From positions 62,001 to 126,000 of the forward strand of contig SLTK01000010.1 of NCBI GenBank assembly GCA_004347695.1: a stretch of DNA of 64,000 nt, in the 5' to 3' direction. Shown piece after piece: positions 6,282-29,369 of this stretch (positions within the stretch are counted from its first letter, which is position 1; each line of letters begins with the position of its first letter). A program made the translations under genes and the position numbers. The notes beneath the pieces are model-generated. The model was not told the DNA's origin. It saw nothing but the letters and a program-made list of their open reading frames with translations, and ran no database searches. The DNA is from Chloroflexota bacterium. Its GTDB lineage: Bacteria; Chloroflexota; Anaerolineae; Anaerolineales; Anaerolineaceae.

Positions 6282-6422
6282 TCATGATCGCACCGGTCTC
6301 ATGACCGTGTGCGCTCACTGACCGAAGGTCTCCACGAACCACGCCAGTCAGAGACTGACAGACAGATCGCGTGCTCGGTCGATCACAGATCGCCCTGCGG
6401 GCGGGAGACCGGCACGATCAAT
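6282..6422. repeat. 141-bp direct repeat, copy 2
   Basis: See copy 1. Confidence 0.92.
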
Positions 6423-6538
6423 GGTCTGCCCCAAAAGCGGGCGGGCGTGGAAACCCGCCCCTACCTGTAGGGGATGGGTTACACCCCATCCCGCATATGT
6501 GGTGGAATAAATGACAAATTTATTTTTTTGAGACAGCT
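6423..6538. mobile_element. MITE-like element, degenerate copy (family with 32717-32831)
   Basis: Shares AAAAGCGGGCGGGC.TGGAA.CCCGCCCCTACC...GGATGGGTT.CACCCCATCCCGCATATGTGG.GGAATAAATGACAAATTTATT.TTTTGAGACAGC with the second copy; degraded terminal inverted repeats. Confidence 0.75.
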
Positions 6539-26370: not shown

Positions 26371-26413
26371 TATAATATTTACTGAGATGTCTGGAGGATA
26401 TGAACCATTGGGC

Positions 26414-26442
26414 TTGACACCGGTTTTTTTGTCAAGTAGAAT
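26414..26442 (+). promoter_or_regulatory. Sigma70-type promoter of riboswitch/ATPase transcript
   Basis: TTGACA (26414-26419), 17-nt spacer, TAGAAT (26437-26442). Confidence 0.85.
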
Positions 26443-26450
26443 TTTCCGTC

Positions 26451-26550
26451 TGTTGGGGAGTAGCTACCCTGTTTCAGGGCTGGTCTGCCGTCAAGCCGAA
26501 GAGGTTCTTCCGGTAGCCCAAACGCTCATCAGCGTTTAGCAAGACCATCA
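26451..26550 (+). promoter_or_regulatory. yybP-ykoY (manganese) riboswitch aptamer
   Basis: Diagnostic blocks in order: GGGGAGTAGC, GCCGTCAAGCCG, CCGG, hairpin AACGCTcatcAGCGTT, TTTAGCAAGACC. Located in the 5'UTR of a P-type cation ATPase. Confidence 0.92.
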
Positions 26551-26571
26551 CTAAGGTGGTGGTCTTTTTTT
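26541..26571 (+). terminator. Riboswitch-controlled intrinsic terminator
   Basis: AAGACCATCAC-taag-GTGGTGGTCTTTTTTT; 5' arm shared with the aptamer's 3' closing strand. Confidence 0.9.
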
Positions 26572-26612
26572 AATCCACCTGCCCCTATATTCACAAAGTC
26601 AAGGAGGCTACC

Positions 26613-29369
26613 ATGCAAGAATGGCATCGGATGGACTACCGCGCAGCAGCGTCGCAGTTGGATACAGAAGTCAAAAACGGGTTGGATCCGGCAGAAGCCG
26701 AGCAGCGTCTGCAAACCCATGGACCCAATGAACTGGTTGATCGTGGGCTAAAAAGTCCCTGGAAAATCTTGTGGGAGCAAGTGACCGAGGTCATGGTGCT
26801 GATCTTGATCCTGGCTGCCGGTATTTCATTTTTCCTCGGCGAGAACCTGGACGCCATCGTCATCCTGATCATTGTCATCCTGAACGCTATTCTGGGTTTT
26901 ACCCAGGAATATAAGGCGGAACAGGCCATGGCGGCCTTGAAAAAAATGGCCGTGCCCAAGGTTAAAGTACGCCGCGGCGGGCGGTTGCTGACTGTGGAAG
27001 CCCGCGTCCTGGTCCTGGGCGACATCATCCAGTTGGACGCCGGCGATGCCGTCCCCGCGGATTGCCGCCTGGTTGAGGCCTTCAACCTGCGAGTGCAGGA
27101 ATCCGTTCTGACCGGCGAGTCGGAGCCGGTGGAAAAAATAATTGAACCGCTCGACGGGGAAAACCTGGGCGTCGGCGACCGCCGCAATATGGTCTTCATG
27201 GGAACAGTGACCACTTTCGGCCGCGGCGTAGCCATGGTGACCTCAACCGGGATGAACACGGAACTCGGCAAGATCGCAGACCTGATCCAAACAGTTGGCA
27301 ACGAGCCCACCCCCCTGCAAAAACGCCTGTCTCAGCTTGGCAAAGGCCTGGCAATGGCCGCCCTGGTGATCGTTGGCATCGTTTTTGCCCTCGGCCTGGC
27401 GCGCGGCGAAGACTTTGAAAGCATGCTGCTGACCGGAATCAGCATGGCCGTTGCAGCTATCCCGGAAGGGTTAACCGCCGTTGTTACCATTGCGCTTGCC
27501 CTGGGAGCACAGCGGATGCTGCAGCGCCGTGCGTTGATCCGCAAGCTGCCGGCAGTGGAAACGCTGGGCTCGGTAACCGTTATTTGTTCGGACAAGACCG
27601 GGACTTTGACCGAAAATCGCATGACCGTCACGCTGGTCGATACCGCCGGCAATCGCGTCGATTTCCTCCAGGAAGTCAAGGAATACGCCCCGCGCCTGTC
27701 CGAAGATGACATCAACCACCCCGTTCAAGGATTTTCCACTGCCCTGGGGCTGATGCTGGTAGGCGGCGCATTGTGCAACGATGCGGTACTGGAAGAAAAC
27801 GAAGGCGAACCCGGAAGTTTCACGGCTGTTGGTGACCCCACGGAAGGCGCGCTGGTAATTGCTGCGGCCAAAGCCGGTTTATGGAAAGAAGATTTGCTCA
27901 AAACCATGCCGCGGATTGCAGAACTACCCTTTGATTCTGACCGCAAACGCATGACCACCGTTCATGAGCTTGACCGCAAACATCCCCTTGCTGTTATCCA
28001 GCCCTCCCAGCAGATAATCCAGGCTGCAAACGAAGCGCCATACCTGAGTATCACCAAAGGATCGGTTGACGGCTTACTGGATATATCGACCTCCGTCTGG
28101 GTGGATGACAAAGCCGTTCCTCTGGATGCTGCCTGGCGTGATCGGATCGATCAGGCCAATGCGGACATGGCAAAGAAAGGCATGCGAGTGCTGGGTATCG
28201 GCTACCGTTTCTGTCATGAGCCAACCGATCCCGCTTGCGCCCAGCCATCGGAGAGCGACCTGACCTTCATCGGCATGATGGGAATGATCGACCCGGCGCG
28301 CCCGGAAGTGCGCGATGCAGTCAATGTTGCCAAAGGCGCCGGAGTGCACGTCATTATGATTACCGGCGACCATCCGCTGACTGCCATGCACATTGCCAGG
28401 GAGCTGAATATCGCTGACGCGGAAAGCACCACATTAACCGGTCAGGACCTGGCAAAAATGGAAGTCGAGGACATCAAAACCAGGGTGGATCACGTCTCTG
28501 TTTTTGCCCGGGTTTCACCTGAACACAAACTTAAAATCGTCCAGGCGCTGCAGGAAAAGAACAACATTGTTGCCATGACGGGTGACGGGGTAAATGACGC
28601 CCCGGCGCTCAAAAAAGCCAATATCGGGGTTGCCATGGGTATCACCGGCACCGATGTTTCCAAAGAAGCATCCGATATGGTGCTGCTGGACGATAACTTT
28701 GCCACCATCGTAGCCGCCATCGAAGAAGGGCGCCGGATTTACGATAACATCCGTAAATTCATCAAATACGCCCTGACCTCCAATATGGGCGAGGTTCTGG
28801 TCATGCTTATCGGGCCATTCATCGGCTTCCCGCTGCCATTGACGCCGCTGCAAATCTTGTGGGTCAACCTGGTCACCGACGGTCTGCCCGGCCTGGCTTT
28901 GACCGTCGAACCGGTTGAGCCCGGAACGATGAAACGCAAGCCGCACTCCCCCACGGAAAGTATCTTTGCCCGCGGCCTTGGCATCGATATCCTCCTGATT
29001 GGTTTGATGCTGGCTGCAGTTTCGCTGGTGGCGGGGTTCTGGTCGCAAGCTACCGGTCACCCGGATAACTGGCAGACCATGATTTTCACGACCTTGACCA
29101 TCGCGCAAATGGGTAACGTTATGGCAGTGCGGTCGGACCTCGATTCAACCTTCAAGATCGGGTTTTTCTCCAACCGGATGCTGATCGGCGCCGTCCTTCT
29201 GACGGTGGCCTTGCAGATGGCCGTCATTTATGTGCCATTCCTGCAAGACGTTTTCAACACCCGGGCACTGCCCCTGACCGATTTGCTGGTCAGTCTCGGA
29301 TTGAGTGTGGTCCTGTTTTTCGGGGTCGAGGTCATCAAATGGACGCGCCGGCGTAAAGGCGTCGAATAA
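26613..29369 (+). CDS. P-type (P2A-like) cation-transporting ATPase, candidate Mn2+/Ca2+ exporter
   Basis: [52 protein letters not shown]; substrate suggestion from the upstream yybP-ykoY riboswitch. Confidence 0.93.

Follow-up and report, generated by a model that had tools for sequence, protein, structure and literature searches.

The window analysed here, a stretch of 64,000 nucleotides of Chloroflexota DNA, carries at positions 26414-26571 a promoter, an aptamer of the yybP-ykoY (Mn2+) class and an intrinsic terminator, in this order, followed by the ORF of a P2A-type ATPase. The promoter starts with TTGACA at 26414 and, after a spacer of 17 nt, ends with TAGAAT at 26442. The aptamer core begins at most 13 nt 3' of the promoter and the complete aptamer spans 26451-26550, while the terminator is made of a stem-loop (26541-26566) and a T run reaching 26571. 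The individual features are as follows.

26414-26442, + strand: sigma-70-type promoter TTGACA-17-TAGAAT, matching 11 of 12 consensus positions
26451-26456, + strand: 5' strand of the P1 switch helix (partner 26545-26550, one U-U mismatch); P1 columns covary in the 81-sequence alignment
26455-26464, + strand: L1 core GGGGAGUAGC, of which 26463-26464 pair with 26539-26540; columns near-invariant in 81 sequences
26467-26479, + strand: P2 hairpin CCCUG-UUU-CAGGG, with compensatory changes in paired columns
26482-26519, + strand: P3 arm, 26482-26490 with 26511-26519 (base imperfect), internal loop L3 and distal hairpin 26498-26510
26491-26497, + strand: L3 loop UCAAGCC; A26493 is equivalent to A41 of L. 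lactis, the adenosine that contacts Mn2+, and U26491/C26492/C26497 are equivalent to U39/C40/C45
26520-26537, + strand: P4 hairpin AAACGCU-CAUC-AGCGUUU, with partial covariation; some relatives lack P4
26541-26551, + strand: strand shared by the 3' side of L1/P1 and the terminator 5' arm, which are mutually exclusive
26541-26571, + strand: intrinsic terminator with an 11 bp stem, a 4 nt loop (UAAG) and a T run
26601-26607, + strand: Shine-Dalgarno sequence AAGGAGG
26613-29369, + strand: P2A-type cation ATPase, 918 aa, the putatively controlled gene; Pfam Cation_ATPase_N, E1-E2_ATPase and Cation_ATPase_C above cut-off

The three signature segments are GGGGAGTAGC (26455-26464), GCCGTCAAGCCG (26487-26498) and TTTAGCAAGACC (26535-26546); the L1 core GGGGAGUAGC at 26455-26464 and its 3'-side AGACC at 26542-26546 are both in place. 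The terminator 5' arm reads AAGACCATCAC, identical to the arm given in a first-pass annotation of this DNA, whose promoter and three core segments likewise lie where it had placed them and match base for base. The -35 box also falls within an inverted repeat, CTTGACA-N10-TGTCAAG (window 26413-26436). As a candidate operator this repeat was rejected: L003 retains it, but within the same genus L005 and L069 do not.

Assignment to the yybP-ykoY class

The window was scanned with Rfam 15 at the gathering threshold and at permissive settings, and RF00080 matched the element at neither. The first-pass annotation had proposed this very Infernal search as a check, with a missing hit to count against its reading; formally the outcome is a refutation, delivered by a model without power here. 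On an E. coli K-12 record, RF00080 gave the mntP leader 41.6 bits, short of the 45 required, and did not list the alx leader at E values up to 1, and its cut-off was passed in none of 121 genomes (this genome and 120 relatives), with a weaker match in 23. Because the model also fails on the known E. coli members and throughout these 121 genomes, its miss in the window is uninformative, and it was dropped as the deciding test after the positive controls mntP and alx failed. The RF00080 model, in the copy used, is insensitive for this order.

An independent covariance model, R1, was built from 16 elements that RF00080 had flagged in this genome and in related ones; they were aligned and given a hand-derived structure. 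None of the training elements belongs to the closest clade of the window element (L003, L004, L005 and L030); four represent different species within its genus, and another is this genome's own element before mntP. R1 matches the window element with 79.7 bits (E about 1e-24), and its next-best match in the window (6413-6497, - strand, 16 bits) was discarded, being without the core motif. The gap between these two scores, together with a fold of 26450-26571 at -49.6 kcal/mol (z = -4.2 against shuffles), places the element well beyond chance.

Applied to the whole genome, R1 found just one further element (G000:C9:77944-78048), which lies before the MntP exporter gene and shares the architecture of the window element (74.4 bits; L3 ACAUACC). 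Across the order, R1 elements were found in 168 of 400 genomes, and the model also matches canonical-looking elements from Geobacter, Bacillales, Tissierellia, Desulfuromonadales, Planococcus and one betaproteobacterium. The mntP and alx leaders of E. coli, both experimentally validated Mn2+ riboswitches, are recovered at 36.7 and 35.1 bits, respectively; their arms are more divergent than those of the window element and their targets (MntP and Alx/TerC) are different. Homology to validated members is thus captured by a single model, which recovers the window element together with the two E. coli leaders, and the link to known Mn2+ riboswitches runs both ways. Control of Alx by a Mn-sensing riboswitch has been described (PMC9936198).

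Covariation was assessed in an alignment of 81 elements (79 distinct) fitted to the R1 model, a procedure that favours the modelled structure. In this alignment 87% of cells pair, 27 of the 30 pairs have changes in both partners, and 413 compensatory cells were counted where shuffling gives 126. The signal is lost when pairing partners are slid, and a smaller MAFFT alignment made without structure gives the same pattern. P3 is particularly well paired (96% of cells in the 81-sequence alignment), and these counts together with the R1 match indicate that the P1-P2-P3-P4 arrangement round the junction is present.

The Mn2+ site of the L. lactis riboswitch consists of G9, U39, C40, A41, U44 and C45, with selectivity arising from N7 of A41 (PMC9190785). 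The equivalents of U39, C40, A41 and C45 are kept in the window element, whose position 44 is a C and variable among relatives; across the aligned elements, A41 and C40 are conserved in 81/81 and C45 in 80/81. One divergent element (L029:1520-1624, - strand), before a DedA-like gene, has L3 CCAUCCC, in which the U39 position is changed and A41 kept. In sum, the R1 score, the retained A41 and the covariation bear out the complete yybP-ykoY aptamer that the first-pass annotation had claimed.

RF00080, in the copy used, misses most Mn2+ riboswitches of the whole order and falls short of its own threshold on the E. coli examples too, so the class is undercounted wherever annotation relies on it. 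That a standard RNA-family model should be blind to this element and to nearly all its relatives in a bacterial order is the single mild surprise of the analysis. In a 2013 survey based on Rfam, which covered Chloroflexi among other bacterial groups, yybP-ykoY had already been found in over 75% of the groups (PMC3766115).

Predicted switching mechanism

P1 needs 26545-26550 and the terminator 5' arm needs 26541-26551; because both use 26545-26550, the two helices are mutually exclusive. When the folding of the growing transcript was computed without ligand, the junction helix P1b and P3 dominated, P1 peaked at 0.42 with the 3' end of the transcript at 26550-26556, and the terminator took over by 26562, once its 3' arm had emerged. 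In the ligand-free minimum-energy fold P3 is rearranged and the terminator favoured, a prediction that fits an ON switch and says nothing of ligand binding. As modelled, the helix geometry is that of a ligand-stabilised ON switch.

The same layout recurs among the relatives. In 62 of the 81 related elements a promoter with a score of 9/12 or more is found 5-20 nt 5' of GGGG (1.85 in shuffles), and in 72 a terminator overlaps the aptamer (1.35 in shuffles); the sample favours strong matches, includes related genomes and holds a few elements twice. Given this overlap and the exclusive helices, the turn-on geometry that the first-pass annotation had predicted stands.

The proposed sequence of events is the following. 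RNA polymerase would begin some 7 nt past TAGAAT, and folding of the aptamer would follow almost immediately. At high cytosolic Mn2+, the ion would bridge L1 and L3 via A26493 and backbone phosphates and lock P1 (26451-26456 with 26545-26550). The locked helix would hold the strand 26545-26551 and block the terminator (26541-26566), allowing the ATPase gene to be transcribed, and the P2A ATPase would then lower Mn2+, and probably Ca2+ too. At low Mn2+, P1 would open, the terminator would form and transcription would end.

We consider it very probable that the leader is a yybP-ykoY riboswitch that senses Mn2+ and in response switches transcription of the P2A ATPase gene ON. This reading is based on sequence, a structure marked by covariation, homology, site residues, exclusive helices and a conserved promoter, terminator and target; from these we infer that the leader binds Mn2+, in which direction it regulates and which ion is pumped. 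Against it stand a short P1 with a U-U mismatch and the lack of any match by RF00080, which also fails known members. The element is a genuine but ordinary switch of the Mn2+ class, and most likely turns on the gene of a metal-exporting pump at high Mn2+.

Mn2+ riboswitches 5' of P-type ATPases are already known from L. lactis yoaB, whose target is a P-type ATPase as here, and from S. pneumoniae mgtA. The window element confirms this textbook arrangement in a phylum that has received little study. The L. lactis L3 loop is UCAAUUC, compared with UCAAGCC in the window element. The L. lactis yoaB riboswitch (PDB 4Y1I; PMC9190785) shares the L1/L3 core, A41, the four helices and a P1 that competes with a terminator, whereas its P1 is AAAGG/CCUUU instead of UGG/CCA plus two pairs. 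By analogy with yoaB, Mn2+-activated transcription read-through is the best reading of the window element. In S. pneumoniae, according to Martin 2019 as cited in PMC9936198, a Mn2+ riboswitch activates mgtA, encoding a P2-type Mn2+/Ca2+ ATPase; the arrangement is like the one predicted here, in another phylum.

The pump, its ion and the genes behind related elements

The translated ATPase contains the phosphorylation motif DKTGT. Among NCBIfam models it scores best with the PMR1-type Ca2+ ATPase (TIGR01522), at 745 bits against an equivalog cut-off of 798; as this cut-off is not reached, we label the protein P2A-type and no more. Of the proteins with solved structures, Listeria LMCA1 and human SPCA1 are the closest. 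The M5/M6 motifs include TSNMGEV and retain SERCA-like Ca2+ site residues. Among the three closest P2-type ATPases of the genome, only this one is preceded by the aptamer.

P2A ATPase is the commonest gene directly 3' of the related elements (50 of 81), followed by MntP (7), DedA-like (6), GlgC (3) and a few TerC-family genes; of 20 further loci, 16 have it as the first or a later gene, in some cases behind glgC or DedA. The P-type ATPase that the first-pass annotation had named as target is supported. No Nramp (MntH) Mn2+ importer was found in the genome (about 91% complete), despite its two Mn2+ riboswitches before exporter genes.

For an ATPase that would otherwise be labelled a Ca2+ pump, the riboswitch provides a functional clue, and its gene neighbourhood makes Mn2+ export likely. 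From the motifs in its sequence, Mn2+ cannot be told from Ca2+ as the transported ion, and a pump for Mn2+ only would go beyond the evidence. The switch may also operate as described in front of what is mainly a Ca2+ pump, with Mn2+ export a side activity under Mn2+ stress. This reading, to which we give somewhat less than an even chance, touches the pump only and is no rival to the riboswitch reading. It draws on the SERCA-like residues in M5/M6 and on S. pneumoniae MgtA, a riboswitch-controlled homologue that exports both Mn2+ and Ca2+ (PMC9936198), and is countered by the rank of P2A ATPase as the commonest gene of operons led by Mn2+ riboswitches in the order and by the paralogues without an aptamer in the same genome. 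The first-pass annotation had suggested export of Mn2+ by something other than a generic Ca2+ pump: the export of Mn2+ remains likely, and the setting aside of Ca2+ does not hold, Ca2+ being compatible with the sequence and MgtA exporting both ions (PMC9936198).

It is improbable that the aptamer itself has shifted to another divalent ion (e.g., Ca2+, Ni2+ or Cd2+) to match a Ca2+-type pump. The pump is indeed closest to Ca2+/Mn2+ ATPases, and L3 departs from the L. lactis loop at two positions other than A41; however, the selectivity residue A41 is invariant, the variable L3 positions also vary in relatives, including those before the Mn2+ exporter gene mntP, and another element precedes mntP in the same genome. 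That the element is just an attenuator or intrinsic terminator resembling the Mn2+ aptamer by accident, a reading for which the silence of RF00080 and the strong terminator could be cited, was rejected on the covariation and on the score of a model built without elements of this clade. It is further opposed by the occurrence of matches in 168 of 400 genomes, with a core that hardly varies, and by the conserved placement before metal exporters.

Gene order behind the aptamer varies among the relatives. In several Anaerolineales-like genomes of this order (L121, L123 and L125; also L050, L067, L092 and L120), a Mn2+ aptamer and terminator precede glgC, a glucose-1-phosphate adenylyltransferase-like gene, and the P2A ATPase comes next where the contig is long enough. 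In L130 and L132 (also L029, L044, L088, L090, L093 and L106), the aptamer is followed by a gene for a DedA-like membrane protein, named by sequence resemblance only (a 45-residue fragment without a Pfam match), and then by the P2A ATPase wherever the available flank is long enough. This recurrence of the ATPase weakens the idea of glgC or DedA as a substitute target.

As a tentative and rather doubtful generalisation, Chloroflexota may harbour a Mn2+ riboswitch lineage largely invisible to RF00080, with the P2A ATPase operon as its core regulon and a glgC or DedA-family gene added in some genera, which would link Mn2+ sensing to sugar-nucleotide or membrane functions. At two other loci (L048:1501-1618, - strand; L128:153-290, + strand), a Mn2+ aptamer lies 5' of an FtsX/MacB-like ABC permease gene or operon.
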